A DNA stretch of 47,526 bases, from assembly GCA_030018315.1 (NCBI GenBank), contig JASEGA010000016.1, forward strand, positions 1 through 47,526, in the 5' to 3' direction. Of this stretch, positions 2,630 through 27,139 are shown one piece after another. This DNA comes from a bacterium. GTDB lineage: Bacteria > Hydrothermota > UBA3073 > JACQXS01 > JAGMCI01. Within the stretch, counting starts at the first letter, position 1. Every line of letters starts with the position of its first letter. A model generated the notes under the pieces. That model saw only the letters and a list, made by a program, of their open reading frames with translations. It was not told the origin of the DNA and did not search any database. The translations under genes were made by a program, and so were the position numbers.

Positions 2630-2842
2630 GAAAAAATTTCGTTCAACCTGAAAAAATTTTACCCCAACCTGGTTTCCAGCTTGCGACGAACCCTCGGTTT
2701 TAAAATGTCCATTTTACAGGCATTAGCCCAAAATCAAACCGACGTCAGTTTTGTGGATTAGCTTAAATCCTGTGGATTTAACTCAAATCCCACAACCTGT
2801 TTCAACCTGAAACAACCTGAAACAACCTGAAACAGGTTGAAA
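2630..2842. repeat. Repeat region A: inverted partner of 26803-27060
   Basis: This is part of a 534-base gene-free interval (2510-3043). Read on the plus strand it has, in order, two AAAAAATTT tracts, a CAACCTGGTTTCCAG element, TCGGTTTTAAAA, AAACCGACG, a palindrome AAATCC-TGT-GGATTT, and then the AACCTG array. The same elements in the same order appear on the minus strand at 26803-27060. The TGTGGATTA near 2753 differs from a DnaA box at one position. A-tracts, an AT-rich core and iterons together resemble a replication origin; a centromere-like or recombination site is an alternative. Confidence 0.8.
2793..2842. repeat. 10-bp-phased AACCTG array in region A
   Basis: Four units of the form AACCTGWWWC start at 2793, 2803, 2813 and 2823, exactly 10 bp apart. 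They are followed by an inverted unit (AGGTTGAAAA) at 2833. One unit per helical turn places all the sites on the same DNA face, as expected for cooperative protein binding. Single AACCTG copies also occur at 2645 and 2665. Confidence 0.85.
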
Positions 2843-2870
2843 AGAAAACCCTCCTCTATTTAGAGAAGGG
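2839..2870 (-). terminator. Terminator of the late (structural/lysis) operon
   Basis: On the minus strand a 9-bp stem (CCCTTCTCT / AGAGGAGGG, one G-T pair) with a 4-base AAAT loop occupies 2849-2870. It is followed by TTTTCTTTTC. It lies about 170 bases after the holin stop codon. The plus strand also shows a T-rich flank, so it may work in both directions. Between it and the holin gene (2871-3043) I see no gene. Confidence 0.8.
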
Positions 2871-3043
2871 ATTTTCCTTTAAAGTATGCTTTTATTCAAT
2901 TCTTTGTCAGTTGCATTACGTATTGTAAGGGTAGTTAATCAGGTAAGTGCTGATACCTCCACCGCTGAACGGACAAATTTCTCCATTTTCGCAGGGTTGT
3001 CCAGTATGCCAGGGCTTTTCGGCTTTAATCAACAAATCTCAAA

Positions 3044-3358
3044 TTATTTAGGTAAAGGTTGTCGCTTAGCCCAAGCCTTCAGTTCATCAAACACCTTCTG
3101 GATTAAAGCCTGATACATTTCCTCAGATAAAACGAACCGTAGCCACTTGGGTAGCAGGTGGTAGGTGTTGTTCTTTACCCAATTAAACTTGGTTTTACCT
3201 GAAATGAGAGCTAACCCTCTAGCCCGTTCTTCTGCTTGGAATATCATGGATGCAATTATCTTTTTGGCTTTACTGAAGTCATAGATAGCATAGATTGCAA
3301 TTGCAACCACTACTACTACCAACCCCCACCAGGAATTAAGCCCTTGTAAAAACTCCAT
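3044..3358 (-). CDS. Holin, LLH (superfamily 6) type
   Basis: A 104-residue protein with one N-terminal membrane helix (about residues 9-28, GLVVVVVAIAIYAIYDF). A soluble helical tail follows, with QAEERARGLALISGKTKFNWV, the layout of PF09682 holins (single membrane segment, then an AE-x-x-x-x-G-x-x-K region). The ribosome binding site is AGAAGGAGG, and the gene follows the amidase directly. It would form the membrane lesion that releases the endolysin. It is the last gene of the late operon. Confidence 0.8.
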   Translation of the reverse strand: MEFLQGLNSWWGLVVVVVAIAIYAIYDFSKAKKIIASMIFQAEERARGLALISGKTKFNWVKNNTYHLLPKWLRFVLSEEMYQALIQKVFDELKAWAKRQPLPK

Positions 3359-3372
3359 GTCTTCACCTCCTT

Positions 3373-4419
3373 CTATATTTTAATTAAATCGTTGACATTC
3401 ATGGCTGCAGTAACTGCACTGCCAATCCCTATTACCACTCGGTCTCCACGGACTTCAATGACATCATACACTCTCTGATACACAAAGCTTGCCAGGTTGC
3501 CACCTGTGTAGGTTTTGGCTCCCTGCTTCACCCGAACCTTATCTCCTACCCGAATAGGCTCAGGTGCTTCAGCCTTGCCAGGTGTTACAGGTCTGCCTGC
3601 TCTGGTGGTGATATAAATGTCATAACCGTTGCTCTTCAAGTCGTTAGCCAGCCTGTCAGCATTACTCCGTACCCTGAATGCTCCAGTCTGTACTCGGTAC
3701 AAGTCGTCATCACCTTGTACCATATAGGTGTCATAGCCATCAGCCTTCAACCTATGGTACATTCTGTCAGCATTAGCCTTAACTGCGAACGCTCCCACCT
3801 GGACACGGTACAGTACGTCGCTATCTTCGTCATCAGCCCCAGGTGCAATATACTTGACGCCTAGGATTTTACAAATTTCTTCGGCATGAACTTCTGCCAG
3901 TTTCTCAAGGTTATCCTCATTCTTAAGCCATGCTTCATCAATTGGGTTATCATGGAAGCCACTCTCAGCCAGGAACACATGGGGACAACCCACCGCCACA
4001 GCATTTCTGATTACTCCATAATAATCCAGGTCAGTTCTGCCAGGATACAACCTTGTCTTGGCTCCACGGTCTGGGTTATCCATTAACTTGGCAGAAGCAG
4101 CAGATATTGCTGCAGCATGCTGACGGTCTCCACTCCTCCTGACAGAGTAGTAAACCTCACAACCTCGTACTCGCCCATTGGCTGCATTACTGTGTTCACT
4201 GATGAACAAGTCGTACCCCCTTGCTGCCTCACCTCTCGCCTGCAGGCTTGGATTTTCGTTCTCCTTCCTGGTCAGGTCGGCTACAACACCACACCTCTCT
4301 AATGCTACCTTGAGACAGGTGGATACAATCCACATACCCCAATACTCATAGTAACCAGTTGGTCCACGGTTTGCATTCCCAGGTGCATGCCCTGGGTCAA
4401 TCATTACCTTCTTGGTCAT
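3373..4419 (-). CDS. N-acetylmuramoyl-L-alanine amidase endolysin with two SPOR repeats
   Basis: A 348-residue protein. Residues 1-190 are an Amidase_3 zinc hydrolase: VMIDPGH gives the first zinc histidine, FISEHSNA the second, and FLAESGF the catalytic glutamate. Two SPOR-type repeats follow (YRVQVGAFAVKANADRM and YRVQTGAFRVRSNADRL), which bind denuded glycan. An SH3-like tail comes last. It cuts the amide bond between muramic acid and the stem peptide. The ATG at 4419 is chosen because AAGGGGG lies 7 bases upstream; the in-frame ATG at 4437 has no such site. The TAG stop is immediately followed by the holin ribosome binding site, which shows TAG works as a true stop here. Confidence 0.9.
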   Translation of the reverse strand: MTKKVMIDPGHAPGNANRGPTGYYEYWGMWIVSTCLKVALERCGVVADLTRKENENPSLQARGEAARGYDLFISEHSNAANGRVRGCEVYYSVRRSGDRQHAAAISAASAKLMDNPDRGAKTRLYPGRTDLDYYGVIRNAVAVGCPHVFLAESGFHDNPIDEAWLKNEDNLEKLAEVHAEEICKILGVKYIAPGADDEDSDVLYRVQVGAFAVKANADRMYHRLKADGYDTYMVQGDDDLYRVQTGAFRVRSNADRLANDLKSNGYDIYITTRAGRPVTPGKAEAPEPIRVGDKVRVKQGAKTYTGGNLASFVYQRVYDVIEVRGDRVVIGIGSAVTAAMNVNDLIKI

Positions 4420-4473
4420 TGCCAATCCCCCTTTCATAGTTTATCTGAGAAACAACCCTATTAAAGTCACAAT

Positions 4474-4758
4474 CTACCCGCCCACAGCTATACCCAAGAG
4501 TATCATTTCTCTGGTGTCGCTAAAGGCTTGCCTCCTTCCAGCTTTACCAGCCTTTAGTTTTGTTAAGTCTGACACAGTACACTCAACAATCTTGGTTAGC
4601 TTCTCCTGTGACTCCATAACATCATTGAGTGTTCTCCTCAAGTCGTTATATTTTCTCATCTCAAGCTGGGTTTCTCTCAAGTCATTTTTAAGGCTGTTAA
4701 GCATTTCAAACAAATCTTTGTTACTGTACCACTGAGTATCATCCTTTCTATCTGGCAT
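4474..4758 (-). CDS. XhlA-like lysis protein, membrane segment cut by an in-frame amber
   Basis: The start is the ATG at 4758, which overlaps the upstream TGA (TGATG) behind GAGAGGAG. The 94-residue product is a charged coiled coil (LKNDLRETQLEMRKYNDL...) that ends in ILLGIAVGG at a TAG. In the same frame the next codons read IVTLIGLFLR before a TAA at 4441. Read through the TAG, the protein has 105 residues and a normal XhlA-type C-terminal membrane helix of about 20 residues. As written, only half a helix remains. Context (just before amidase and holin) supports a lysis role. A TGG to TAG change at a Trp codon would explain it; leaky readthrough setting two forms is a more speculative option. 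Confidence 0.7.
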   Translation of the reverse strand: MPDRKDDTQWYSNKDLFEMLNSLKNDLRETQLEMRKYNDLRRTLNDVMESQEKLTKIVECTVSDLTKLKAGKAGRRQAFSDTREMILLGIAVGG

Positions 4759-7610
4759 CACACACTCTCCTCTCTGTTTGCGTCTGGTAGGTAGGTGAAC
4801 AAGGTCATGTCCTCTTGCCCCAATGCCCACATACCTATGCCCTTAGCATTGTAGCCACGAATAATGTCTACAGTTCGGATGAACCCTTGGGCATCACCAT
4901 TCCAAGCAACAGAGAACCCCTCTGCATCACCAACATATATTGACCGCAACCAGATACCTGCATCAACAAATTGAACTTCTATCTCCTTACTACCCTGCCA
5001 AGATTGAACGGTTGCCAGTGGTGAATGACGGTAGTCCAAATCCCATGGATAAGGCTCTAACTCTGTGCTCCTCACATTAAGCCCTGAGTACTCCAGGTAG
5101 CCATATTGGTCGTACCCCACGCTTCGTGGCACTTCTCCGAACGTATAAGTTTGCTCATCGATTTTGACTGCCAACTTCTCCATTGGCTCGTATCGGTCAG
5201 TGGTGTTTATAATCAGGTTGTAAAGTCTAACCTGCCCACCTTTAACATAAGCACCCCAAGCTCCCTGTTCTACGGGTGTGGGTAGTTGCATATCAAAGTA
5301 CTGCCTGTTACCCACCACACCGATAAATCTGTTGTTGTGCACGGTTACTCTTATATCCACACTTGACCCTTGCAAACCTGCTAAAGCTGCACTCATTGGC
5401 TCTGTGGCTATCACCTGACCGTTATATATCAGCTTTACCGTGTTGTCTCGGTAGTCTACCAAAAACAAATACCCTTCATTGCTATTCCCTCTCTGACTTG
5501 CCAAGAACCTCATTCCTGCAGCTTGTTGTTGTCCTGTCTCAAAGAGCAACCTAACCTCCGCATGGATATTACACGAGAACCGCTTGTCTAAAATAAGCTG
5601 TCCGTTGCTGCAGGTTGCATACCCTGCAGGCTGGATAATCCACTCACCTGAACTAAACCCTACAGCACTCACCTGGCTGATACAAACCATCTGCTCTCCA
5701 GTCCAGTAAAGGTTTGGTCCACTTCCACTACTGTAGCTGGCTGGGTTTGCCCTCCTGTAATATGCTGTACGTGTCAAGTCGTTGTTCGGTATCTGCTGGT
5801 TGACATGTGGTGAGATATTGTCTTCCCAGATAATGACAGGTCTCGGCACTCTCCGTATCGTTTCAGCAGTTACCGTCAGCTCCTCTGGCAGAGAAGCCAG
5901 TCTCTTTTTTAGTACCTTTCCATCCACTTCGTCCCTCTCGTAAAACTGCTGAATGTTCGGTGTACAACGCATCACCCCTCCTAAGTTATTTTGGTCATAG
6001 CTCTGGCACACTATGAACCCGTATATGACAGCTTGGTTAGTGTTCCCCACCTCAATTGTATTCGTGCCAGAAAAATTCCATGAACCGCAGTCATAGAAAT
6101 GACTGCCCAACACATAGAACGGATACCAGTCTTCCAGGTTTTCTCCTCCTATAGTGAAAGGAGAACTGTTTACAGTAATACCTATGGTATCAGCTCCGTA
6201 TGTGGGGAAGCTAACCAAGGCTATCAGTCGGTAATTGCCTGTGGCATTAAACATATAGGTTATCTTTCCATCTTCTGAAAATATTGGCTCTTCTCCATCC
6301 CAACCAACCAAGGCTGGCACACATGCTTTCCGGTTTTCGTCATAAGCCCATTGACGGTTTCTTACTGTGTAGCCCTGGAAGGTGTGTTGCCCTAACCCCT
6401 CTTCATTCCTGGTAGCTTGCAAAGATAAGCTGGTTTCACCTGAACGAACACCTGATGTTAGAACCATCAGCACACCGCCAAAAACAGGTCTTTGTCTCTT
6501 GAAGTAACTGGTGATGAACCGCTCTTGGTTGTATGTGCCTCGGTTGATGTTCCTAACCGTCTCAATGTGTGGCTCTCTGAACATGTCATATACGTGCAAG
6601 TAACTCTTCTGGTAGTGGCTCTCGTCATCATGAGTACCACACCAAGGCAGGAATGGCTGGTTAACCCACCAGAATGAACCGTCTGGTCTCCTACTACCCT
6701 CGTTGTGTTTGAACAATCCGTTCTGCCACTGGATGAGCTGTTTGTAGGTTACAGTTGCTCCCCGTCCACCCTCAACGCTGATGTTCCAACGTCTGCCGTA
6801 TGCTGCGTTACCTATGAATGTTCTGTCAGGTGGAAGGCTCTGGGCAACCCAGCTCATGACATTCTGTAGCCACCACACAGGTGTACTTGGTCCAGGTGCT
6901 GAACCTGCCCAGGCGAAGTCATAGGTCATCAACTGGTACTCGTCACAGTTGGCTTGAGCCATTATTGGGTAGCTGTGCCAACCGTAGTAGCTTGGGTTAT
7001 TAACTCCAGTCATAGCATACAGGTTGACACGGTCTTCCAGTCCTAACGGTATGCAAACCTCTTGCTTAGTTCTTATCAACAGGTCTCTGTATTTCTCAGC
7101 ATCACCCTCACGTGTGCCCACCTTCTCGAAGTCGGTCTCAATGCCTGCTATGGGATATCCTGCTGCAAGGTAAAGCTCGGCAATCTTGTACAACTGGTCA
7201 ATATAGGTGTCTTGGCAACCATCTGTATTGTCCAACAATCGGTTAACCAGTGTGTCTCCAAAGGCTATCGTCTGTAAACTCCACTTGATGTTTGGGTATG
7301 TCTCCATCAGATATCTCAGTGATGTTGGAACCCAGGATTGTATTGCAGTGCCTGCACTGTTGAGCACGTTCAACCAAGTGGCTTTATAGTTGTATATAGT
7401 ACCGTCGTTTGCTACTCCGAAGTCGTGCAACCCAATAGCATAAATTTTCTCATGATACAGCTCAATCGCTTGGAGGAAGCCCCTGCTATTGACGCCCCAG
7501 TTCATAGGTGCATTTGGGTCAATTGTCACCCACTCACCGTTTATCTTCTGTTTGTATTGGTCAAAGTTTGCACTGCTGGGTGCATGTAAGCTCCATGACA
7601 GGAATTTCAT
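4758..7610 (-). CDS. Tail protein with N-terminal GH18-like glycosidase domain
   Basis: A 950-residue protein. Residues 1 to about 340 form a TIM-barrel-like domain resembling family 18 glycosidases: AGIETDFEK aligns with the DGxDxDxE motif, keeping the last Asp and the catalytic Glu but replacing the first two Asp. Further on, QLMTYDFAW and GNAAYGRRW match the barrel's later strands. The middle is beta-rich. Around residues 640-800 is a LamG/concanavalin-like segment (GYLFLVDYRDNTVKLIYNG). It overlaps the upstream tail gene by 4 bases and the XhlA start by 3. It is likely a tail-tip or fibre protein that binds or cuts cell-wall glycan. Confidence 0.75.
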   Translation of the reverse strand: MKFLSWSLHAPSSANFDQYKQKINGEWVTIDPNAPMNWGVNSRGFLQAIELYHEKIYAIGLHDFGVANDGTIYNYKATWLNVLNSAGTAIQSWVPTSLRYLMETYPNIKWSLQTIAFGDTLVNRLLDNTDGCQDTYIDQLYKIAELYLAAGYPIAGIETDFEKVGTREGDAEKYRDLLIRTKQEVCIPLGLEDRVNLYAMTGVNNPSYYGWHSYPIMAQANCDEYQLMTYDFAWAGSAPGPSTPVWWLQNVMSWVAQSLPPDRTFIGNAAYGRRWNISVEGGRGATVTYKQLIQWQNGLFKHNEGSRRPDGSFWWVNQPFLPWCGTHDDESHYQKSYLHVYDMFREPHIETVRNINRGTYNQERFITSYFKRQRPVFGGVLMVLTSGVRSGETSLSLQATRNEEGLGQHTFQGYTVRNRQWAYDENRKACVPALVGWDGEEPIFSEDGKITYMFNATGNYRLIALVSFPTYGADTIGITVNSSPFTIGGENLEDWYPFYVLGSHFYDCGSWNFSGTNTIEVGNTNQAVIYGFIVCQSYDQNNLGGVMRCTPNIQQFYERDEVDGKVLKKRLASLPEELTVTAETIRRVPRPVIIWEDNISPHVNQQIPNNDLTRTAYYRRANPASYSSGSGPNLYWTGEQMVCISQVSAVGFSSGEWIIQPAGYATCSNGQLILDKRFSCNIHAEVRLLFETGQQQAAGMRFLASQRGNSNEGYLFLVDYRDNTVKLIYNGQVIATEPMSAALAGLQGSSVDIRVTVHNNRFIGVVGNRQYFDMQLPTPVEQGAWGAYVKGGQVRLYNLIINTTDRYEPMEKLAVKIDEQTYTFGEVPRSVGYDQYGYLEYSGLNVRSTELEPYPWDLDYRHSPLATVQSWQGSKEIEVQFVDAGIWLRSIYVGDAEGFSVAWNGDAQGFIRTVDIIRGYNAKGIGMWALGQEDMTLFTYLPDANREESV

Positions 7611-8452
7611 ATCTTACCACCTCCCAACGTGTACTGAGTAAACTCCGCAACCCCTGTAAAGCCAATACCAGTATCTCTCATATATTGCACCTGGTCAACA
7701 CCGCCCCAGGCATTGGAAATTTCTTGGCTCACCCTCTTGTAGAATTCAACCCTTATTCGGTACGAACCCACAGGCATTACCATGAAGGATTGCCTTGGAG
7801 TGGTCAAAATTTTGGTCTCTCCATTGACTTCCCCCACGTTGAAGTGTCTTATCCCCTGTGGTTGGGGAACGCCACCCACAGTGGCTGTACGTGTGCTGGT
7901 ATGCAATTTAATCTCTGTACCTGCTGTAGCACCGCTCATATAAAATTCTTTAGTGTACCGCTTGTGCAGTGGGTGTTCTTCAAACAAACCCCAGTAAACC
8001 CTGTCCCAACTCTCTATCTGGGTGCCAAAATTAGTTGAAATCTTGAGTAAGTCGTAGTTATCCTTAGGATATATGGTTAAATCAAGCCCAGCCATCATTA
8101 TAGGCTTGGAATAGTCTTCATGATAAACGTTAGGGATGACAATTACCTCATGTCCACGCCCTATAAAGTTGAAAAACCTGTTCTTAACGCCTTCATAGAC
8201 TTCAGGTGGAAAGTTTTGATATTCGTCATTCCCTTGTGCTGTATCGTTCTCATTTATGGTACTTTCCACCAATTTCAAAATCTCTGATGTGTGGGGAATA
8301 TAAGCAGTAACTTGAGCACCGCCCTGGAACATGATATCGGTTATGGTCAACTCCCCTTCAAAATTGTTGGCAACCACCCTCAATTCCATGCTCTCTATTC
8401 GTTTATCTTTGTTGGGCTGGAACACCTGCAAATATCTTACAAACTCTCCCAT
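7607..8452 (-). CDS. Tail-associated protein with ITDIMFQGG motif
   Basis: A 281-residue protein whose N-terminus (MELRVVANNFEGELTITDI) is a paralogue of the 60-residue protein encoded directly upstream. The shared core (NF-G-L-ITDxMFQGG) is found in structural proteins of several Gram-positive phages. The rest is beta-rich (TSTRTATVGG, MPVGSYRIRVEFYKR), suggesting a receptor-facing or baseplate-accessory protein. Its stop overlaps the next gene's start (ATGA). Confidence 0.6.
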   Translation of the reverse strand: MGEFVRYLQVFQPNKDKRIESMELRVVANNFEGELTITDIMFQGGAQVTAYIPHTSEILKLVESTINENDTAQGNDEYQNFPPEVYEGVKNRFFNFIGRGHEVIVIPNVYHEDYSKPIMMAGLDLTIYPKDNYDLLKISTNFGTQIESWDRVYWGLFEEHPLHKRYTKEFYMSGATAGTEIKLHTSTRTATVGGVPQPQGIRHFNVGEVNGETKILTTPRQSFMVMPVGSYRIRVEFYKRVSQEISNAWGGVDQVQYMRDTGIGFTGVAEFTQYTLGGGKI

Positions 8453-8635
8453 TTACATCACCCACTTTATCTCAGAAGGGTGTCCAGTCCATTCTGTGGA
8501 TATGGTGCCACCCTGGAACATCAAGTCAGTAATATACAATGTCCCACTAAAATTCTTACCAACCAGTCGTATCTTGACTGACACAATTCTCTTGCCCCAG
8601 TCTGGTGTAACCACCTGTGCCTTTCTCCTAAACAT
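8453..8635 (-). CDS. Short paralogue of the 281-residue tail protein
   Basis: A 60-residue protein with MFRRKAQVVTPDWGK and then VGKNFSGTLYITDLMFQGGT. It matches the N-terminal part of the next gene almost residue for residue. It ends with SEIKWVM, where the longer protein goes on. This looks like a tandem partial duplication within the tail-tip cluster. RBS AGGAGGTG lies before the ATG, and the stop is directly next to the following start. Confidence 0.7.
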   Translation of the reverse strand: MFRRKAQVVTPDWGKRIVSVKIRLVGKNFSGTLYITDLMFQGGTISTEWTGHPSEIKWVM

Positions 8636-8646
8636 AGTTACACCTC

Positions 8647-10131: not shown

Positions 10132-10144
10132 GTGTCCTCACCTC

Positions 10145-11215: not shown

Positions 11216-11228
11216 ATTTAACCCTCCT

Positions 11229-11972: not shown

Positions 11973-11975
11973 AGT

Positions 11976-13988
11976 CTACCCCCTCCCTTTTGCCCTATCT
12001 CTGGCATTTTGTTTACGCATCAGGTTGGTGCTGATGTGTGGTGTTGTAGCCCTAGCTACCTCTCTACCATCAATGTACAGAGGAACGGTTATAACAAATT
12101 CTCCACCGCCACCACCTGAACCAATTCTATCGGCTATCGCCTGTGCTAGTCTTCCAAGCACACTCTCAGACAGTGGTAAAACTGCCTCATCATGCACACC
12201 TTCACCAATGATTGCAGGTGTCGGGTTTCCAGCCCTGATAAATCCACCTCGTGCCAGTTGGGGAATGTTGGGGATATTGAAGCCAATCGAACCGCCTCCC
12301 TTACCACCAATACCAGGAATCCAGTCAGGTATCTTAGGAATATTAATTTTCACCCTGTTCAAGGCATTAATCATTCCGTTCATTAACCCAATTATACCAT
12401 TGATAGGTGCTTTAATGATACCTACCATACTGTCCCAAATACTTCTGGTCGTGCTACGAACCCTCTCCCAAACACCTGTTATCTTACTGCTCATCCAGTC
12501 GAAGGTTGTGCCAATGACATTACGTATGGTATTAATCAGGTTTGTAATGGTGTTCTTGATACCGCCCCAGATGTTGCTGGTTACGTCTCGTACCCTGTTC
12601 CAGACATTCTGTATGGCATTCCATACAGCATTGAGAGCATTAGTGAAAATTTCTTTGATACGCTCCCAAACCTCTATGAAAAACTGAGATATCTCTTCCC
12701 AGTTGGCAATAATTATGCCTAATGGGTGGTATTTGAAGAACAAATCAACTATGAATGACAGTGCTTTCTGGAAAATCTCTTTAATCCAGTCCCAAATACC
12801 CACAAAGAAGTCGGCTATCGCCTGGAAGATTGCTGTAGCTTTGTCTTTTATCCACTCCCAGCTATTAACAAGCCACTCACTAACCGTGTCCCAGTTCTTC
12901 CAGAGGAGAACTATGGCTGCAATAAGCCCTACAATTAACACCACAATCCAGGTTATCGGGTTTGCCAAGAGTGCTGCTGTGAATGCCCAGGTAGCCTTAA
13001 CTGCTGCTAGGAACGCTGGCACCATACTCTTTAAGGATATGGTTGACAGTGCTTCCTTGGCTGTGCTTACGCCTTTTATAGCTAGTCCAAGTCCCATCAT
13101 CAGTGGTCCAAGGTCTTTAACTGGCTCCAGAAACGTGCCTATACTCCACATAGCACTGTCAATATTATGTTTCAGGTTAGCCCATACACCCAAGCTCCTG
13201 GTGTTAATCTCAGCAAGTTCATCAGTTAGTCCTGCACTGTTTTTGAGCCTCTTCCGCTGCTCTTCTAAGGTCTCGTTCGCTACACCAAGCTCCTGCCAGA
13301 ATTTATTTACATCACCTTCGGCATTGCGGATTGCTTCCTGGAAGCCCATAACTGCTCTTGGTCCACGCCTACCCTCTGCTTCCAGTGCAGCCATGGCAAC
13401 TACCACATCATCAACGCTCAAGCCCAAATCCTTCAAGGCTGGTGCTTCACGCCTCATCAACTGTCCCAGATTATCCATATTAACTGTGGTTTGGCTCGCC
13501 AAGAAGGTCAGGCTATCCAGGTGTTCTTCAGTCTCGGACAGAGGAATACCAAGTGCTGACAACATTCGGTCGAAGATATCAATACTCTCAACTATATCTT
13601 TCCCTGTGGCATCAGAGAACTTATCAAATGTGGGTAGCAGGTTTTCAAACTCAGCCTTGGTAGTCACACCAGACTGGATTAACCGCTCCATGCCCCTTAC
13701 TGCATCATCATTGGAGAAGGTGGCATTAGTCATGGCTTGTATCATCTTGCGTAATTCAGTCTCATTTTCACCTGTAATAGCAGCAGTACGCCTCAAACCG
13801 TCGTTAAGCTCAAAACTTCTGTTGGTCATCTTGGTCATAGCACCGCCTACAGCAACACCTGCAGCAGTAACCTTTACCCAGTTCTGTTCCATCCAGCTTG
13901 CTGCTTGCTTACTGTTCTTGCCAATCTTCTCAATAGTATCGCTTGCCTGGTCTATTGCTTTGATGATAATTTCCATTACGTTTGCCAC
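11976..13988 (-). CDS. Tail tape-measure protein
   Basis: A 670-residue protein with a helical N-terminus. The central region (EAEGRRGPRAVMGFQEAI...) has the TP901-type tape-measure signature. Two hydrophobic segments follow (AFTAALLANPITWIVVLIVGL, about residues 340-375), with a Gly-rich C-terminus (GGKGGGSIGFNIPNIPQLARGGF). It sets tail length and probably takes part in DNA entry. I prefer GTG at 13988 because GGAGG lies 8 bases upstream; a GTG at 13997 would crowd the RBS. At 670 residues it predicts a fairly short tail, roughly 100 nm by the usual 1.5 angstrom per residue rule. Confidence 0.85.
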   Translation of the reverse strand: MANVMEIIIKAIDQASDTIEKIGKNSKQAASWMEQNWVKVTAAGVAVGGAMTKMTNRSFELNDGLRRTAAITGENETELRKMIQAMTNATFSNDDAVRGMERLIQSGVTTKAEFENLLPTFDKFSDATGKDIVESIDIFDRMLSALGIPLSETEEHLDSLTFLASQTTVNMDNLGQLMRREAPALKDLGLSVDDVVVAMAALEAEGRRGPRAVMGFQEAIRNAEGDVNKFWQELGVANETLEEQRKRLKNSAGLTDELAEINTRSLGVWANLKHNIDSAMWSIGTFLEPVKDLGPLMMGLGLAIKGVSTAKEALSTISLKSMVPAFLAAVKATWAFTAALLANPITWIVVLIVGLIAAIVLLWKNWDTVSEWLVNSWEWIKDKATAIFQAIADFFVGIWDWIKEIFQKALSFIVDLFFKYHPLGIIIANWEEISQFFIEVWERIKEIFTNALNAVWNAIQNVWNRVRDVTSNIWGGIKNTITNLINTIRNVIGTTFDWMSSKITGVWERVRSTTRSIWDSMVGIIKAPINGIIGLMNGMINALNRVKINIPKIPDWIPGIGGKGGGSIGFNIPNIPQLARGGFIRAGNPTPAIIGEGVHDEAVLPLSESVLGRLAQAIADRIGSGGGGGEFVITVPLYIDGREVARATTPHISTNLMRKQNARDRAKGRG

Positions 13989-13993
13989 ACTGC

Positions 13994-15622: not shown

Positions 15623-15641
15623 TTACACCATCCTCCTTCCT

Positions 15642-16567: not shown

Positions 16568-16574
16568 ACCTGGC

Positions 16575-16964: not shown

Positions 16965-16970
16965 TGTGGC

Positions 16971-17348: not shown

Positions 17349-17364
17349 AGGGATTTACACCCCC

Positions 17365-18366: not shown

Positions 18367-18367
18367 G

Positions 18368-18712
18368 TTATTTACCCTCCTTCACGTTTCTTTTTCTACC
18401 GAATAAATCTCGGTCTTCGTGCTGGGACTTGGTAGCCCCTCCCACTTCCTCACCGTCTTGCCCTTTCAGGCTTTTAGGTGTAGCACTCTTCTTACCTACC
18501 TTAGTTTCCAACGCCTCCAACTTCTCCATCACCTGAGACTTGAACGCTTCATATTCAGTGTTCTCAGCCTCTTCTTGCCCCTCGGTCTCCTCTGTGGTCT
18601 CAGCTTCATCAGCCTTTGCCTTCAGTGCTTCAAGCTCCTGCTGAATAGGCTCAACCGCAGACTTGACAGCCTCATCGATGAGATTTTTCAATTCTTCAGG
18701 CTTGATACTCAT
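18368..18712 (-). CDS. Nested scaffold protein from an internal start
   Basis: Inside the protease/scaffold gene an in-frame ATG at 18712 is preceded by AAGGAGG with 8 bases between it and the ATG, as good as any start in this genome. It would give a 114-residue product beginning MSIKPEELKNLIDEAVKSAV, containing only the charged coiled-coil scaffold. Phages such as lambda (C/Nu3) make protease and scaffold from one frame in this way. Confidence 0.65.
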   Translation of the reverse strand: MSIKPEELKNLIDEAVKSAVEPIQQELEALKAKADEAETTEETEGQEEAENTEYEAFKSQVMEKLEALETKVGKKSATPKSLKGQDGEEVGGATKSQHEDRDLFGRKRNVKEGK

Positions 18713-19795: not shown

Positions 19796-19808
19796 CGTCT
19801 CACCTCCT

Positions 19809-20678: not shown

Positions 20679-22119
20679 ACTTCTCTGCCACCTCCAGTAG
20701 CCTCTCTTGCAGGCTCATCAATGTTGCCTCCAACTCTGGTGCTACGTCAACCTCTAAGGTAATCGGCTTACCGTTTAGGTAGTGGGCATCCATAGCTGGG
20801 TGTTCCACTCGGTCAAGTCCAAACCTCTCCCCAAAGTGTAGGATAAGTTGATTAGGTGTCATTGCTGCCTTGTCAAAGAGCTTGATGGCAATTTCCATAT
20901 CGTGCTTCTCGTCGCTAGTGTCTATCTCAGCGAACTTAAACTCAAAATCAAACGCCTCAAAACCATCATACAGAATGTGTTTATTGATAAGCCCTTCTAG
21001 CATTTCTTGCCTTGGCTCTACCACCGAACGCTTGTAAATCTCGGTACTTTCTTGAGCTGTGTTACCTCCCAAGCTACCAGTCTCTGCTATACCCATTCTG
21101 TAAGGTGGCACACCGTGTGCTGCAAGTACCTCATCCCTGTTGTCCTTACGATATAACCTGAAGCTGGCTTCTTTAACATCAACGCTCAAAGGCTTGAACT
21201 CAATCTCCACTTCCCCCCGTCCATCAATGGTGGGTATTGACATTATCAGTGTTGAATGTGGAGACTTAGATAGCTCGTTAAAATGTTCCTCAATACTTTT
21301 CTCAAACTCACTCTTACCATCCTCATCCAATTCACCTGGGTCAAAGTTGCCTGTGATAAACACCGCATAAGCTGGCACGCCCCAGTTGTCAAAGAAGGCT
21401 ATATTGTAATCACGCCTTGCCGCATCACCATGGATAGCCCCCAGTGCAGGTATCACGTCTGGCAATCCGTAATAGTCGCTCCTGGGTGTATAGTTGACAA
21501 CCCAGAAAATTTCTGTGGCTCTACGCTCTGGTGCCAAGGAACCAAGCTCTTTAATGTGCCCTGTCTCAAAGTCCACATCATGCTCAAACCCAATACGCTT
21601 GAACCACCTGGTTTTGCTCCCTCTCACCTGGACGAACCTGTTGCCATCCCTGTGTACTCTCAATGTGTGGGCAGGAATGTGCACCAGGTCTGCAGGCTCA
21701 CCGTCGTGCTTATAATCAACCCTGGTCAGTTCTGCTGCACCATAACCAATTGCCTCATAGTCAAACATCACCTTGTCAAAGGTCTTGCTTACAGGCTCTG
21801 AAAGGTCACTGAAGAAGTCTTCAAGCATGGTCTGCATGCTCTCATTCGGTTTGTCCACTAGAGGAATAATCTGCCAACCTAGCCCAGCAACATCTCTGGC
21901 TTTGGTCTTGCAAGCCCTATAGTGGTAGGTGTTCAGCTCCAGTATTCGTGCCAATGCTTCAGGATTATACAATGGTTGCACCAACCCATGCTGGTTGTAG
22001 CTGTCTGTAAACATGTCGGCTGGTAACTGCTTGCTGGCAGACTTGTTGGCATACTGCTCCAAGATATCCTCTCTAACAACCCTGCCATTTTTGGTTACAA
22101 ATGCAAATGGTTTTCTCAT
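20584..22119 (-). CDS. Portal protein (PBSX family)
   Basis: A 511-residue protein. TYHYRACKTKARDVAGLGW, GYGAAELTRVDYKHDGEPADLVHIPAHTLRV and NYTPRSDYYGLPDVIPALGAI are portal stem/wing features of the PBSX-type family, and HGVPPYRMGIAETGSLGGN is the conserved C-terminal clip region. It lies between TerL and the Mu F-like gene. It forms the dodecameric DNA gate. Confidence 0.9.
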   Translation of the reverse strand: MRKPFAFVTKNGRVVREDILEQYANKSASKQLPADMFTDSYNQHGLVQPLYNPEALARILELNTYHYRACKTKARDVAGLGWQIIPLVDKPNESMQTMLEDFFSDLSEPVSKTFDKVMFDYEAIGYGAAELTRVDYKHDGEPADLVHIPAHTLRVHRDGNRFVQVRGSKTRWFKRIGFEHDVDFETGHIKELGSLAPERRATEIFWVVNYTPRSDYYGLPDVIPALGAIHGDAARRDYNIAFFDNWGVPAYAVFITGNFDPGELDEDGKSEFEKSIEEHFNELSKSPHSTLIMSIPTIDGRGEVEIEFKPLSVDVKEASFRLYRKDNRDEVLAAHGVPPYRMGIAETGSLGGNTAQESTEIYKRSVVEPRQEMLEGLINKHILYDGFEAFDFEFKFAEIDTSDEKHDMEIAIKLFDKAAMTPNQLILHFGERFGLDRVEHPAMDAHYLNGKPITLEVDVAPELEATLMSLQERLLEVAEKYADSDKDGTGDREIIDVIKSFKAVASKAITS

Positions 22120-22123
22120 CTAA

Positions 22124-23554
22124 TCACCGCCTTCCCACACTCTTTGCTCTGAGCTTTATTGGCTTAACCTCATTCTGCTTGGCAAACGCTAGCATCAACG
22201 CATCAGCCCTGTCAGGAGAAGGTAGCCCCCTCTTCTTCATGTCATCTTTACTCTCAACTTGTATCTGCCCTCTGCTGTTTATCTTGTACTTGATGTTGGC
22301 AAGCTGGGCAATCATTTCTTCATCATTCTCTATGTCAATGTCTCCATCTTCGAACCGCTCTCTCAAACCCCACCACCATTCAGCACGCTTGTTGGCGAAC
22401 CGTTCACTATCACTGGCTGCAAAACCTGAACGCATTTCTAAGGCTGGCTCATTAAGTTCTTTCAATCGGTCGAACACGCCTGCCCCCAACCCATCAGCAT
22501 CAACCTTAATCTTTGTTGCTCCTGTATCTCTCCTGGCAGATATTGACAACCCTGCTGTCTCCATTGTATCTCCCATTGGTCTGGTCTGGTATATTCTGGC
22601 TACCGAACCTCTTCTAAGCAACCACACACTCTCATCTGGTCCATACCTAGCCACATCTACACCCAATTCTACTGGCTCTCCAGGCTCAAGCTCTGCCCTG
22701 ACAGCTCGCTCTATCCAGTCCAGTGGTATTAATGTGTCTGTGCCTTGTGTTGGGAACTGCCCTAACACTCTAGCCTGGTATAGTGGAGAATTCTTGCCCC
22801 ACCTCTGGAACCGCTTGGCAACCCACTGTGGTGTTACCAGATATGGGTGTGGTAGGTTGTCTGTTATCTTGTTCTCCCAAGCACCGCTCTCAATATCCTT
22901 CTCGGTTATCCTAAACGTCGTAAAGTTTGGTGTGTCAAAGGCACTAATATAAAACTTCTTGATACCTGGTGTCTTAAACGCCTGACCGAACCTGCCTGTT
23001 GTACTCGTTGGGTTTCCTATCATCAACAATCTGGCATGTTCACTTGTCAGTACACCGTCAATTGCTTCATATATTTGTTCACTCACCCCTGCAGCTTCGT
23101 CAACTATTACCAAGATGTTGACTTCGTGGAAGCCCTGGAAACGGTCTGGGTCATACTCTGGTGCTGTGAAGCCCCAAGCCCACCAGTTGGTGTCTAACTT
23201 CAACTCCTGGGTTAACAGCTTGCCACCCAGTGGTAGTTTAGCCCTACTGTGTGCTAACCGTATCTCCTTCCACAAAATACCCTTTACCTGCCTGTCGGTA
23301 GGTGCAGTGGTGATAACCACGCTTGGTCTATGGTTGAACAGATACCACAGTGCTGTGTTCGCTGCAATGTAGCTTTTGCCAGCACCGTGGCAACTTGCTA
23401 CAACTGTCTCTTGGTTGACCCTGACCGAATTGATGATTTCCTCTTGCACACTCCATAGGTCGTTTCCTAAAATCTTTTTGACCCACCATGGTGGTTGCTG
23501 CTGGGAACGCTTCACCATTTCTCGGGCAACCTCTGGACTAATTGGTGTCTTCAT
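22124..23554 (-). CDS. terL: Terminase large subunit
   Basis: A 476-residue protein. The ATPase domain has Walker A SCHGAGKS (about residue 55) and Walker B ILVIVDEAA with the coupling motif GNPTSTTG. The nuclease domain has the acidic residues of GVDVARYG, DADGLGAG and PDRADALMLAF. It drives DNA packaging into the prohead. The start overlaps the end of the small-subunit gene in another frame. With the circularly closed sequence it suggests headful packaging. Confidence 0.93.
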   Translation of the reverse strand: MKTPISPEVAREMVKRSQQQPPWWVKKILGNDLWSVQEEIINSVRVNQETVVASCHGAGKSYIAANTALWYLFNHRPSVVITTAPTDRQVKGILWKEIRLAHSRAKLPLGGKLLTQELKLDTNWWAWGFTAPEYDPDRFQGFHEVNILVIVDEAAGVSEQIYEAIDGVLTSEHARLLMIGNPTSTTGRFGQAFKTPGIKKFYISAFDTPNFTTFRITEKDIESGAWENKITDNLPHPYLVTPQWVAKRFQRWGKNSPLYQARVLGQFPTQGTDTLIPLDWIERAVRAELEPGEPVELGVDVARYGPDESVWLLRRGSVARIYQTRPMGDTMETAGLSISARRDTGATKIKVDADGLGAGVFDRLKELNEPALEMRSGFAASDSERFANKRAEWWWGLRERFEDGDIDIENDEEMIAQLANIKYKINSRGQIQVESKDDMKKRGLPSPDRADALMLAFAKQNEVKPIKLRAKSVGRR

Positions 23555-24113
23555 CCATGCTTGCCACCAAGTCTATCCAGGTCTCCATGACGCTGGCTTT
23601 TCTACCCTCGGCATCTGTCCCCAGCAACTCAGCCTTAGTTTTCAAGCTCGTGTTGATGTTGGTATTCAACACCTTCAAGAAATCAGCCAGTGGTTTAGGA
23701 GCTATTTTCTGCTTAAGTTTGTCTGCCATCAGTTCGGCTGTTCGCTTGTACATAGCATAGTCAGTTTCTATCATATCATCCAACTTTTCAATCTCAGACA
23801 GGTTTTTATCAATGTACTGAGATTTCAAAAGTTTACTCTTCTCGTAAGCCAGGTCTACTTTGTCCTTCTTCTCTCCATATTCTTGAGCAGTCTTTTTATC
23901 AGCATACACCTGCTTGATAGTATCCTTGTCAACAAAGTGCTCACGCATATGCTTCCATATGGAAGTCCTGCCTATGCTTTCCTTGAGCTCCTTCTTAACC
24001 CTGTCAACACAATCAACCAGTGTAACGCCTTCCAACATCCACTGTTCAATTTTGTCACGGTTAGGGGAATTGCAAACCTTGCATCTAGTAGAATAACCCA
24101 AAGGTTTCGCCAT
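23538..24113 (-). CDS. terS: Terminase small subunit
   Basis: A 191-residue helical protein that starts MAKPLGYSTRCKVCNSPNRDKIEQWM. The CxxC near the N-terminus and a helix-turn-helix (LVDCVDRVKKELKESIGRTSIWKHMR) suit DNA recognition at the pac site; the rest is coiled coil for ring assembly. I chose ATG 24113 (GGTGGTGAG about 7 bases upstream) over a GTG at 24134. It is the first gene of the late operon. Confidence 0.75.
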   Translation of the reverse strand: MAKPLGYSTRCKVCNSPNRDKIEQWMLEGVTLVDCVDRVKKELKESIGRTSIWKHMREHFVDKDTIKQVYADKKTAQEYGEKKDKVDLAYEKSKLLKSQYIDKNLSEIEKLDDMIETDYAMYKRTAELMADKLKQKIAPKPLADFLKVLNTNINTSLKTKAELLGTDAEGRKASVMETWIDLVASMDEDTN

Positions 24114-24232
24114 GCTCCTCTCACCACCTTTCACAACTCTTTGTCAGCATTCCGCAGAGTTTGGGTAAACAATTCTTCTCAAACGGTTTCGCAATTATTT
24201 CAGCGGATTACCACTATATTTCTTCAATTTTC

Positions 24233-24238
24233 ATTATA
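24233..24238 (-). promoter_or_regulatory. Candidate late promoter -10 element
   Basis: A perfect TATAAT on the minus strand lies 115 bases before the terminase small-subunit start, in the only sizeable gap (24135-24296) of the region. The sequence 17 bases upstream (GTGCTT) is not a -35 match and also differs from the GGGTTRA element found elsewhere in this genome. That would fit a late promoter needing an activator. Confidence 0.45.
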
Positions 24239-24296
24239 CCTCATACGAAAAGGAAAAGCACATCCGAAAGTCTTTCATATTAAGCCTATATTTAGC

Positions 24297-25787
24297 TTAA
24301 ATGACGCATTTCTCACACTCTTCCACAATTACCTGGTTTTTTCTGCTTTTATCTCTGTATACTGTCAGTCCTTTACAGCCCATTCTGTAGGCATGCCAAA
24401 CTGCATCTTCCACATCACGCTTTGTAGCTCCACCTGGGAGATTAATGGTCTTGCTTATTGCATTATCCACGTGCTTCTGCCAAATTGCTTGATGTTCCAC
24501 GTGCCACACCCAATGTATCTGCCCTGCTGTCCTAAACAGCTCTTCATCATACTTACCCCATAATGGATGATATCGTGTGTACTCTATATCTGCCTGATGA
24601 CGTTTCTCAGACACGGCAAATATTGGCTCTATACCACTTGAACACCCTGCCAGGATACTTATGCTGCCTGTGGGTGCAATCGTTGTTACAGTGGCATTTC
24701 TACCAGCACTGGCTTGCTTTCCCACCTGTTGAATGAAGCCTCCAAGCTGGTCTGCAAGCTTCAATGCCTCATCGCTATCATATTTGATACTAAGCTTAAT
24801 GAGCATATCTGCCCAGCCCATTACACCCAGTCCTATTTTCCTGGTTTTCTTTGTCATCTCAGCAATCTCTGGTAAAGGGAAGTTGTTACAGTCAATTACC
24901 CCATTCAAAAACTCTACCGCATTAGTAACGGTATCAGCAAGCAGGTCATAATGCACTTCTCCACCTGGAAGAACATGCTCTGACAGATTGATTGACCCTA
25001 GGTTGCAACTCTCATATGGCAACAAAGGTTGCTCTCCGCAAGGGTTTGTAGCTTCCATCTCACCCAGTTCAGGCATAGCCCTATTCCTATTTATAGTGTC
25101 TATGAATAGCACTCCAGGCTCACCGTTGTACCAGGATTGTTCTATAATCAAATCCCAGATATCTTTAGCTCTAACGGTTTCCCAAACTTCGTTATTCCTG
25201 GGATTAATCAAATCAAAACTTGCATCCTGCTCCACTGCTCTCATAAATTCGTCTGTAATAGCCACGCTGATGTTGAAATTGCTGATAACTCCATCAACGT
25301 GTTTGCATTTGATAAACTCAACAATGTCTGGGTGGTCAACTCTCAACACACCCATATTGGCACCACGTCTCATACCTCCCTGTTTAACCGTGTCTGTGCC
25401 AACGTCGTAAACCCTCATAAAACTAATTGGTCCACTGGCTACCCCTCCAGTACTTTTGACCTTATCTCCTTTCGGTCGTAGCCTGCTAAAAGAGAACCCT
25501 GTTCCACCACCGCTCTTGTGTATCATGGCTGTGTGCCAGAGACTGCCAAAGATACTCTCCATGCTATCTTCTATTGGTAACACAAAGCAGGCTGACATTT
25601 GTCCAAGCTCTCTACCTGCATTCATCAATGTTGGACTGTTGGGTAAGAACCTGTTTTCTGCCATCAGTCGCTTACCATTGCCAACCTTGACGTAGTTTGC
25701 TACACGATCGAACATTTGTTCTGGTGTCTCATTTGGAGCTAAATACCTCCTCTTGAGCAATTCCAATTGAACTTCATCAAATTTCAT
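24297..25787 (-). CDS. nrdJ: Ribonucleoside-diphosphate reductase, adenosylcobalamin-dependent (class II, NrdJ type)
   Basis: A 496-residue protein. The barrel is intact: LPNSPTLMNAG, the radical-pair Cys in MSACFVLPIEDS, the active-site loop NPCGEQPLLPYESCNLGSINL, TIAPTGSISILAGCSSGIEPIF, and a C-terminal redox pair ECEKC. It reduces ribonucleotides to deoxyribonucleotides. It is much shorter than most class II enzymes (700-1000 residues): there is no ATP cone, and the usual linker after the LADQLGGFIQQ helix is missing. RBS AAAGGAGG. It lies at the end of the metabolic block. Confidence 0.85.
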   Translation of the reverse strand: MKFDEVQLELLKRRYLAPNETPEQMFDRVANYVKVGNGKRLMAENRFLPNSPTLMNAGRELGQMSACFVLPIEDSMESIFGSLWHTAMIHKSGGGTGFSFSRLRPKGDKVKSTGGVASGPISFMRVYDVGTDTVKQGGMRRGANMGVLRVDHPDIVEFIKCKHVDGVISNFNISVAITDEFMRAVEQDASFDLINPRNNEVWETVRAKDIWDLIIEQSWYNGEPGVLFIDTINRNRAMPELGEMEATNPCGEQPLLPYESCNLGSINLSEHVLPGGEVHYDLLADTVTNAVEFLNGVIDCNNFPLPEIAEMTKKTRKIGLGVMGWADMLIKLSIKYDSDEALKLADQLGGFIQQVGKQASAGRNATVTTIAPTGSISILAGCSSGIEPIFAVSEKRHQADIEYTRYHPLWGKYDEELFRTAGQIHWVWHVEHQAIWQKHVDNAISKTINLPGGATKRDVEDAVWHAYRMGCKGLTVYRDKSRKNQVIVEECEKCVI

Positions 25788-25844
25788 GGTTTTACCTCCT
25801 TTTTGTTGAATTTTGGTGAGAGGGTAGACTTCCCCTTATACCTT

Positions 25845-25872
25845 ATTATATCTCTATATTCTTCTCTTAACC
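25845..25872 (-). promoter_or_regulatory. Promoter of the ribonucleotide reductase gene
   Basis: On the minus strand GGTTAA (25867-25872), a 16-base spacer and TATAAT (25845-25850). It is the same GGGTTRA type as six others in this genome. Three TTCAACAAAA-like repeats flank it, two upstream around 25880-25912 and one over the leader at 25801-25812. They may form an operator. Confidence 0.6.
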
Positions 25873-25891
25873 CTACTTTCAACAAAAATTT

Positions 25892-26378
25892 TCAACATTT
25901 TATTTTGTTGAAATCCAATTTAAGGTCTTTCCTTGATGAAAGGTAGTCGCAAAGGTGGACATACCACTGTATGGTGCTGCTTGGCTTCGGCTCTCCCCAC
26001 TTACCCATGTGGGTGGCAATACATTCCCCTACACGCCACCTCAGTGAGCCTTCAGGTACGCCTGCACAGTACTTCTCCTGGGCAATCTTATCGTGTCCGT
26101 CAACAGTGTGTTCCTCAGTCTCACCGTGCTTCCAGGTGTCGTGTAATATCAGTGCAGCTATAACAATGTCCTCTTCTGTGCTGGTGAAGTCCATCAGCTC
26201 GAACAGATTGATTGCTACCCACACTGCTGCCCTGGTATGTCTTACCAACCCACCTTCACCCTGGGAGAACTCTGGCTGGCACTCTCCAGAAGTATTCTGG
26301 TGCTTGTTCCAGGCATTCCTCTACCCACTGTCTCAGTCTGTCGTGCTTAATCCACCTGGTACACCTCTTCAGCTCCAT
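25892..26378 (-). pseudogene. HD-domain phosphohydrolase split by a frameshift
   Basis: The first segment starts at ATG 26378 and reads MELKRCTRW...CLEQAPEYFWRVPA, then ends at a TGA (26256). The +1 frame continues with GEGGLVRHTRAAVWVAINLF, HDTWKHG and HTVDGHDKIA to a TGA at 25892. Together they have the order of the HD family that reads PEYFWxxPAS...GEGGLVRHT...HD. The total length, 487 bases, is one too many for a single frame, so one surplus base near 26260-26275 (for example in the CCC) would explain it. Without the N-terminal part, a TTG start at 26248 could still yield a short HD protein. The substrate is likely a nucleotide. Confidence 0.65.
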
Positions 26379-26668
26379 TTACCTTCACCTCCACATTCAG
26401 TACACCGCCAGATACCTGCATCAAAGGCACAGAATACCTGTTGGTTGAACTCGTCTCTGTCATCCACGCTGGTGCCACACTTTGGGCATTCAGTTGGTCT
26501 GTTATCTCCTAATGATAGCACGCTTGGCTTAGGTTGTGGTTGTACGCCCACCTCCTGCATAGCCAGTAGCCTGAACCAAGTACTCATTGATACACCCTTA
26601 CTCTTTGCTACTTTAGCTACCTGGTTGTACAACTCCTCATCCAGATATACGTTCACACCTTTCTTCAT
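26369..26668 (-). CDS. Ribbon-helix-helix DNA-binding protein with C-terminal zinc ribbon
   Basis: A 99-residue protein starting MKKGVNVYLDEELYNQVAKVAKSKGVSMSTWFRLL, a clear CopG/MetJ-type RHH domain. The C-terminus has CPKC and, further on, CTEC, a zinc ribbon. I chose ATG 26668 because GGGGGA lies 7 bases upstream; the longer frame to 26761 is not protein-like. It is encoded directly downstream of repeat region B. RHH proteins often bind tandem 7-11 bp repeats, so the phased CAGGTT sites are its probable target (inference). Confidence 0.75.
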   Translation of the reverse strand: MKKGVNVYLDEELYNQVAKVAKSKGVSMSTWFRLLAMQEVGVQPQPKPSVLSLGDNRPTECPKCGTSVDDRDEFNQQVFCAFDAGIWRCTECGGEGKWS

Positions 26669-26762
26669 TCCAATCCCCCATTTCTTAATCGTTAATTTTC
26701 GGCTTAAATGGCAATTTTCAAGCTCTCCGTTCACCGCTCCCCGCAGGTTTTTTCTCCACACT

Positions 26763-26798
26763 CCGCTCCGTTTACATCACTCCACACTGCTCCACGCA
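26763..26798. repeat. GTGGAG-type phased repeats beside region B
   Basis: On the minus strand the sequence GTGGAGCAGT-GTGGAGTGAT is followed by CGGAGCGGAG-TGTGGAG, with several GGAG elements spaced close to 10 bases apart. They sit between the CAGGTT array and the RHH gene. A short block of phased sites like this may be an operator; it is not found in region A. Confidence 0.4.
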
Positions 26799-26802
26799 AC
26801 TT

Positions 26803-26898
26803 CGCAGGTTGTTTCAGGTTGTTTCAGGTTGAAACAGGTTGGGACTTGGTCAAATTTCAGGTTGTTTCAGGTTGAAACAGGTTGAAACAGGTTGAATT
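26803..26898. repeat. 10-bp-phased CAGGTT array in region B (two blocks of four)
   Basis: CAGGTT occurs at 26805, 26815, 26825 and 26835, and again at 26858, 26868, 26878 and 26888, always 10 bases apart within each block. The linker bases alternate GTTT and GAAA. A 17-base spacer (GGGACTTGGTCAAATTT) separates the blocks. This is the same unit as in region A (AACCTG), in the opposite orientation. Confidence 0.88.
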
Positions 26899-27060
26899 TT
26901 AACCAAATCCCTGCGGATTTCATCTGTTTTGAACTTCCACCGTCGGTTAGCTTTTTGACTAAGCCCTGCTATTGGTGAACTTTTAAAACCGATATTCTCT
27001 CGCAACCTGAAAACCAGGTTGGTGTAAAAATTTTTTCGGCTGCAGAAAAATTTTTTACTA
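26803..27060. repeat. Repeat region B: inverted partner of 2630-2842
   Basis: This lies in a 471-base gene-free interval (26669-27139). Read on the minus strand it shows AAAAAATTTTT tracts, CCAACCTGGTTTTCAGGTTGCGA, TCGGTTTTAAAA, AACCGACG, a palindrome AAATCC-GCAG-GGATTT and then the AACCTG array. This is the same order as region A read on the plus strand. The distance from A is about 24.2 kb one way and 23.3 kb the other, so the two are nearly opposite on the circle. Beyond 27060 (27061-27139) I see no further elements. Confidence 0.8.
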
Positions 27061-27139
27061 AAAGGGTTTCTGCAAAATGCTCGAACCCTCGGTATTAGTA
27101 TCGGCTTGAAACAGTTATTTCAAGATAAACCACGTAATT

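Follow-up and report, generated by a model that had tools for sequence, protein, structure and literature searches.

The 47,526-bp stretch of DNA analyzed here (the window) is the entire contig C16 of a 1.95 Mb assembly of 74 contigs, and represents a siphophage genome of 47.5 kb. It carries two homologous non-coding elements, R1 (positions 2624–2842, plus strand) and R2 (26803–27062, minus strand), which are inverted relative to each other. Each element consists of a conserved core, with two A-tracts and an operator-like motif, and an array of heptads phased at 10 bp. Judging from the sequences and from analogy with known phages, we consider the chance about even that R1 and R2 form a two-part, mirror-arranged replication origin, both parts of which would be recognized by the same phage protein or proteins.

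Results

Homology of R1 and R2

Local alignment of the whole elements gave a score of 121, compared with at most 34 in 500 dinucleotide shuffles. The parts upstream of the arrays scored 83 (shuffles, at most 34), and the cores without their arrays scored 86 in inverted and 23 in direct orientation. When the window was compared with itself, R1/R2 was the strongest repeat, with approximately 210 bp aligned in inverted orientation at 71%. Further, the runner-up to the inverted R1/R2 pair scored 36 in 56 intergenic comparisons (both orientations; 8 of the 16 listed intergenic regions of at least 60 nt were taken in), and the best of 943 random window pairs scored 29. A 261-base R1 query matched R1 and R2 alone across the whole assembly. 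An earlier sequence-only reading of the window had described two such regions, with shared elements in the same order and in opposite orientation, and had named an alignment no better than shuffled intergenic sequence as an outcome that would speak against them; the elements are present where it placed them, and the real pair lies far above the shuffles and the intergenic runner-up.

The four copies of AAAAAATTT in the window are divided between R1 and R2, two in each, with 20 bp between the members of a pair. Three CANNNTG heptads in a row at 10-bp pitch occurred at seven start sites, all inside R1/R2, and in none of 20 mononucleotide shuffles of the window; no other array of this kind was detected elsewhere in the window. 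Searches with R1 returned only five matches among phage records (E 0.3 or worse, none convincing) and none among plasmid records, and the R2 region of L008, a contig of a related phage, matched neither phage nor plasmid records.

In both elements, the A-tract pair (20-bp spacing) is followed by CCAACCTGG, TCGGTTTTAAAA, AACCGACG, an AAATCC/GGATTT palindrome and the heptad array. On the plus strand, R1 comprises the A-tract pair at 2631–2659 (AAAAAATTT at 2631 and 2651, around a CAACCTG heptad at 2644), a CCAACCTGGTTTCCAGCTTGCGA block that aligns with R2 (2664–2686), TCGGTTTTAAAA (2694–2705), AACCGACG (2737–2744), the AAATCC...GGATTT palindrome (2765–2779) and an array of four CAACCTG followed by one inverted CAGGTTG at 10-bp spacing (2793–2839). 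Comparison of clades suggests that TCGGTTTTAAAA of R1 is perhaps half of an operator palindrome, TCGGTTTTAAAACCGA. On the minus strand, R2 comprises the A-tract pair at 27028–27056 (AAAAAATTT at 27028 and 27048), a CCAACCTGGTTTTCAGGTTGCGA block with two inverted heptads (27000–27022), TCGGTTTTAAAA (26981–26992), AACCGACG (26941–26948), the palindrome (26905–26920) and two array blocks, each of four CAACCTG at 10-bp spacing (26858–26894 and 26805–26841).

The 7-mer AAACCGA/TCGGTTT was intergenic in 8 of its 10 occurrences in the window (109, 2123, 2144, 2578, 2694, 2736, 26986 and 31500). In relatives, it lies a few bases upstream of TATAAT-like boxes that precede early genes. It is probably a phage promoter or operator element common to R1 and R2. 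A second 10-bp repeat, AAAGTTTGAA, in approximately three copies, was observed upstream of the AAACCGA-bearing early promoters of the relatives (L042 796–828 and 2658–2688; L022 14035–14070; L044 3360–3395; L041 2040–2070), with a weaker trace in the window at 2197–2230.

Genome context and placement

All genes recognized in PHROGs and Pfam scans are on the minus strand, as the sequence-only reading had noted, and transcription runs leftwards. They comprise virion and lysis genes (terminase, portal, protease, tape measure, tail and endolysin), replication and recombination genes (DnaE-type polymerase, primase-helicase, PD-(D/E)XK exonuclease, Sak4 and a RuvC-like gene), and genes for thymidylate synthase, ribonucleotide reductase and a sigma-like factor. 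The genome is probably circular, because a helix-turn-helix (HTH) reading frame with a Shine-Dalgarno-like sequence spans the contig join; the window has no exact terminal repeat of 9–200 nt. Integrase was never the best match in the scans of window proteins, and a plasmid or lysogenic state is therefore not indicated. Tail-protein matches to Geobacillus and Halalkalibacterium (41–43% identity, two loci) are too distant for host assignment, and the basis of the phage-host link is binning alone. A scan of genome contigs (98 pattern stretches) revealed no relative by primase.

In the order of transcription, R1 comes after the endolysin gene, the gene p3044 and a terminator-like hairpin (2849–2870, minus strand) that lies between the late module and R1, and is followed by early genes and the replication module. 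There were two such hairpin sites near R1, compared with a shuffle mean of 1.1. R2 comes after the end of the replication module and is followed by a ribbon-helix-helix (RHH)-like gene, ribonucleotide reductase, terminase and virion genes. Because the flanking genes change module at these positions, R1 and R2 mark both junctions between the replication and structural modules. The arrangement is that of a mirror, with both arrays facing the structural arc and both cores facing the replication arc.

From centre to centre, the arcs between R1 and R2 measure 24,195 and 23,331 bp, in agreement with the 24.2 and 23.3 kb reported from the sequence-only reading. The chance that two random points lie this near to antipodal is 0.018, a post-hoc figure; the matching figure is 0.051 for relatives, in which composite arcs from overlapping contigs are approximately 24,970 and 22,540 bp. 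The late arc of the relatives joins contigs G150, G161 and G159 at 99.69–99.95% identity, and the early arc joins G164 to G154 at 93–95% and G154 to G153 by a 127-nt identical end overlap. Among the contigs examined, the window alone has both sites on one contig. The near-antipodal placement may be a simple consequence of two gene modules nearly equal in size.

Conservation, joint change and exchange in related phages

IMG/VR contigs include a sister clade whose polymerase is 84–85% identical to that of the window where covered. Counterparts of R1 were present in three of these contigs (G159/L022, G164/L044 and G163/L042), between the homologues of p3044 and amidoligase, and a fourth contig, L041, reaches only the edge of the element. 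Counterparts of R2 were present in three contigs (G150/L008, G153/L011 and G171/L088), between the homologues of the tandem-HTH and RHH-like genes. L022 and L044 are nearly one phage (99.8%), as are L011 and L088 (98.6%), and the independent cases are fewer than six. Gene junctions and core-to-array polarity are as in the window, and in both clades one locus has core and array in the mirrored order of the other. Single copies at random spacing, which the sequence-only reading had named as the contrary pattern, were not found in the sister clade: it has both loci, with the same junctions and the same mirror polarity, the spacing being derived from overlapping contigs. In the window, the small protein p2210 (2210–2509, minus strand; S13-like H2TH domain, E 5.5e-11) is encoded directly downstream of R1, between R1 and the amidoligase gene; it has no match in the sister-clade contigs. 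L022 and L044 have approximately 650 extra bases preceding R1.

The arrays of the window contain only CAACCTG/CAGGTTG, at both sites, and the six arrays of the relatives contain CACCTTG/CAAGGTG, likewise at both sites (single variants in three of the six; 10-bp pitch within blocks). Because the heptad changed at both sites together, a common trans-acting factor is indicated. All eight arrays include four or more phased heptads in one block, and orientation is mixed in seven. The heptad orientation within the sister-clade arrays is not mirrored, and most heptads point one way on the genome at both loci. A symmetric dimer could be indifferent to this orientation, CANNNTG being nearly palindromic.

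R1 and R2 also exchange sequence, because in one relative their cores have a 125-nt identical run in common. This strain is represented by the overlapping contigs G150 (R2), G161 and G159 (R1), joined at 99.69% over 7,984 nt and 99.95% over 10,650 nt. In place of this run, another segment is found in R2 of G153 and G171; at R1 of L042, the R1-type segment is present but has diverged. The simplest reading of these sequences is that the R1 segment was copied into R2 in the G150/G161/G159 strain.

At the R2 locus, array and RHH-like gene occur together in all four array-bearing genomes (window, G150, G153 and G171). G165 and G152, which come from one metagenome, cover this locus and have neither the array nor the RHH-like gene; in G165, only 483 bp remain between the amidoligase gene and the upstream contig end, which is not enough to reach an R1 array. 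The more distant contigs G155 and G156, which are probably complete circles as judged from the repetition of their ends, contained neither array nor inverted pair. Direct-repeat clusters in G155 and G156 were considered as single iteron regions and were rejected, being located in acidic coding sequence.

Pattern searches of IMG/VR for the CAACCTG type returned four stretches, none of which was matched by the 13 flanking proteins. The CAAGGTG type returned 18, of which six are loci of the clade (L042, L073, L078, L079, L083 and L088) and 12 were dropped because they had no match to the flanking proteins. The window-core pattern was present in no IMG/VR contig, and the relative-core pattern in five, all known already. 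A general array pattern matched 7 of 22 records, including G170/L075, which was dropped as unrelated, again with no match to the 13 flanking proteins. At 12920–13157, L075 carries arrays of CAAGGTGTGC, also at 10-bp pitch.

Candidate array-binding proteins

The first gene after R2 (26369–26668, minus strand) encodes 99 aa from an ATG at 26668; the N-terminus is RHH-like, and a zinc ribbon with four cysteines is also present. Its product is the most likely candidate for the array binder. Pfam matches to RHH_5 (E 6e-4) and RHH_1 (E 0.03) were both below the cut-off, NCBIfam gave only a rubredoxin-like domain (E 0.004), and there was no PHROG match. Among solved structures, the lowest E belonged to a zinc-finger chain, of which no stretch passed alone, followed by CopG (E 0.015) and AvtR (E 0.07). 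The predicted model (pLDDT 69) has two helices, and its top fold matches were Arc and ORF56 (E 0.25) and CopG (0.88), with no fold match at E ≤0.001. The sequence and the model are thus weakly consistent with an RHH fold. Three IMG/VR contigs (of 94 pattern stretches) contained homologues. With a limit of E 0.1, the 50,697 phage records searched gave none, and among 390 genomes the protein was found only in that of the window. At the putative DNA-facing strand residues, the window has GVNV where the sister clade has SISV, a change that appears to parallel that of the heptad.

A second candidate binder is the product of the tandem-HTH gene upstream of R2 (27140–27547, minus strand). A third is the DnaG-type primase fused to an MCM-like helicase (37269–40184, minus strand), which might otherwise be the helicase recruited to the origin. 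With this protein, tblastn matched 308 phage records, 47 of them over at least 80% of the length, with Microbacterium phages best (33%).

The RuvC-like gene (27686–28078, minus strand) has a homologue in L011 that matches a Holliday junction resolvase family (E 1.6e-4). In the window, the gene has a 5-nt insertion with a stop codon in the catalytic DPGET region (insertion region 28079–28098); the stop directly follows a GGT codon, and another GGT lies just beyond. The same insertion is present in G150, whose DNA is 75–78% identical over the larger aligned pieces, and the frame is uninterrupted in G153, G152 and G165. The insertion could represent a very short translational bypass, for which T4 gene 60 is the comparison, a −1 frameshift or a broken gene.

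Discussion

We favor a two-part origin because each of the two composite sites combines an array with A-tracts and operator-like motifs and no other such array is present, because the phage encodes a polymerase, a primase-MCM-like helicase, an exonuclease, Sak4 and a RuvC-like gene, and because there are two precedents, oriL/oriR of SPP1 and ori/crr of P4. R1 and R2 would be cis-acting sites at which the same phage protein or proteins assemble. A filament would form as RHH-like dimers occupy one CANNNTG heptad after another, each a helical turn from the next; bending or opening of the DNA by the A-tract core would let the primase-MCM helicase and DnaE polymerase load. One site could fire, and the bound partner site could pause the incoming fork and set off recombination-dependent concatemer synthesis; the phage has genes for a PD-(D/E)XK exonuclease and Sak4 and a RuvC-like gene. 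A bolder version, to which we give only tentative credence, is a mirror-symmetric two-origin replicon, in which RHH filaments on two inverted composite sites at the module junctions would present the same face to each arc, causing the early and the late half of the one-strand genome to be copied or insulated differently, and the sites would be kept matched by gene conversion.

Several results weigh against an origin. Paired origins, one of the roles proposed in the sequence-only reading, remain the best reading, but GC skew, one of the checks proposed there, gives no support: third-position skew was 0.120 and 0.131 for the two arcs, with no shift at R1 or R2. Skew at fourfold sites in the four half-arcs (co-directional, 0.040 and 0.088; head-on, 0.017 and 0.037; bootstrap sd 0.03–0.06) showed only a weak tendency, which was not significant, and nothing beyond error. 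We therefore rejected strand asymmetry as an origin signal, arcs and half-arcs being alike within error. DnaA boxes were likewise rejected on their counts, and host dnaA loci were retrieved for comparison; the boxes were not enriched: with one mismatch allowed, the window has 20, whereas R1 has a single box (1 mismatch) and R2 lacks them. A-tracts are present at both elements. When stretches of the window were ranked by stability, the R1 end came within the lowest ten, though only moderately, and R2 was outside these ten at all four window sizes. The least stable site for 50–200 bp windows was near 25,800, not at R1/R2. Further, the RHH assignment of the 99-aa protein is weak, and RHH proteins with arrays before their own gene are mostly repressors or partition proteins. 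The primase-helicase, which remains a candidate binder, also differs in G165 and G152, where a partial match lies in another place. The least stable stretch itself (25788–25891; approximately 25,740–25,890 in 50-, 100- and 200-bp windows) is flanked by the ribonucleotide reductase and HD genes, with R2 approximately 1 kb away.

In phage P4, as in the window, the same repeats occur in both orientations at two separated regions, ori and crr. The P4 alpha primase-helicase binds the type 1 repeats, and P4 circularizes. Self-comparison of P4 revealed a 37-nt similarity between ori and crr (84%, E 7.7e-4) that is inverted, like that of R1/R2; with the P4 genome drawn as a circle, the arcs between the two measure 4.85 and 6.77 kb. 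P4 crr adjoins an annotated terminator, and R1 the terminator-like hairpin. In contrast, the P4 repeats are 8-bp units with irregular spacing, unlike the heptads phased at 10 bp, and the shared part in the 11.6-kb P4 genome is short compared with that of R1/R2. GGTGAA occurs in the repeats of the sister clade and of P4 but not in those of the window; it is short, and chance is likely. We know of no RHH protein in the P4 origin system. The statement in the sequence-only reading that no description of such a symmetric inverted pair in an all-one-strand genome is known is softened by ori/crr.

SPP1, the other precedent, is a lytic Bacillus siphophage with transcription reported from one strand, and passages of PMC6316719, PMC3485210 and PMC5615212 describe its oriL and oriR as two similar sites with direct repeats and AT-rich DNA, recognized by one origin-binding protein. 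The same passages propose a theta-to-sigma switch with an exonuclease, an annealing protein and a resolvase, and that fork stalling by bound initiator at oriR triggers concatemer synthesis (PMC6316719, PMC3485210, PMC5615212). Like SPP1, the window has a pair of similar repeat regions within a single phage genome, both of them non-coding in the window. However, the SPP1 sites are, in these passages, approximately 12–13 kb apart in 44 kb with oriL inside gene 38, whereas those of the window are non-coding and near-antipodal. The SPP1 binder, gp38, is described there as acting with a loader (gp39) and a DnaB-type helicase, whereas the helicase candidate of the window is primase-MCM-like; PHROGs named no DnaB family among the 25 large window frames.

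The main rival is that R1 and R2 are operator arrays of a transcriptional switch, in which R2 would head the late module and R1 the early module, and the RHH-like protein, by binding both, would repress or activate the modules in turn. The gene context fits this well, and we regard it as possible without expecting it. R1 stands at the start of the early module behind the terminator-like hairpin, R2 immediately precedes the RHH-like gene and the late module, and the core holds the mostly intergenic AAACCGA, which is also present ahead of the genes for polymerase and amidoligase; the closest RHH proteins of solved structure, such as CopG and AvtR, are regulators. However, a shared promoter module would not need the polarity of the composite to be opposite, relative to gene direction, at the two loci, as it is in both clades. 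Sigma-70-like sites were near shuffle level (3 versus a mean of 2.0, and 1 versus a mean of 1.8), and 5–15 heptads per array with a long conserved core are more than a simple operator. An unlikely alternative is a non-origin domain boundary, fork barrier or synapsis pair, whose R1 and R2 filaments would join and fold the circle into early and late loops or stop forks. The orientation of both arrays towards the structural arc and of both cores towards the replication arc would suit it, as would the sequence exchange, which implies that the copies are able to meet; but gene conversion requires homology only, and the family scans made named no Tus- or SMC-like partner.

The array of pSM19035 is located before the gene of its own RHH protein, omega, and the sequence-only reading had also mentioned a centromere pair. 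An RHH-type partition system, resembling the pSM19035 ParB on parS, would agree with the mixed orientation and phasing of the arrays next to a gene with a weak RHH assignment. That ParB needs at least four contiguous heptads, and different orientations work alike (PMC9499535). The partner NTPase was not found, however: no ParA, ParM or TubZ family was named among the 25 minus-strand frames of at least 200 aa (PHROGs) or in the Pfam scans. The pitch is 10 bp and not the 7 bp of pSM19035, no integrase was a best match and a plasmid or lysogenic state is not indicated, and omega was not among the 16 solved-structure matches (E up to 1) of the RHH-like protein. We consider a centromere pair quite improbable. 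Inversion sites, also suggested earlier, are not indicated by the gene order and orientation of the sister-clade contigs, which match those of the window, yet the copies do recombine. Least probable is an old duplication kept alike by gene conversion without joint function; the R1–R2 exchange in one relative would agree with it, but two clades retain both loci in the same polarity with a jointly changed heptad, and core parts are conserved while adjoining parts diverge.

In the titles and abstract openings of the matches listed, neither an origin pair that is both inverted and antipodal nor a phage initiator of the RHH type appeared, most subscription journals being outside the coverage. Two-site repeat systems in phages are already known; the RHH link, the extent of mirrored homology and the joint change of the repeat are new. 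To our knowledge, two-site origins in phages are known from very few models. The present phage family is a natural experiment: two clades share one architecture but differ in the recognition repeat, which changed at both sites together, and in more distant relatives the element is absent from the loci that their contigs cover. It would allow tests of whether an RHH protein can license replication, and of why the two sites sit in mirror orientation at the module junctions.

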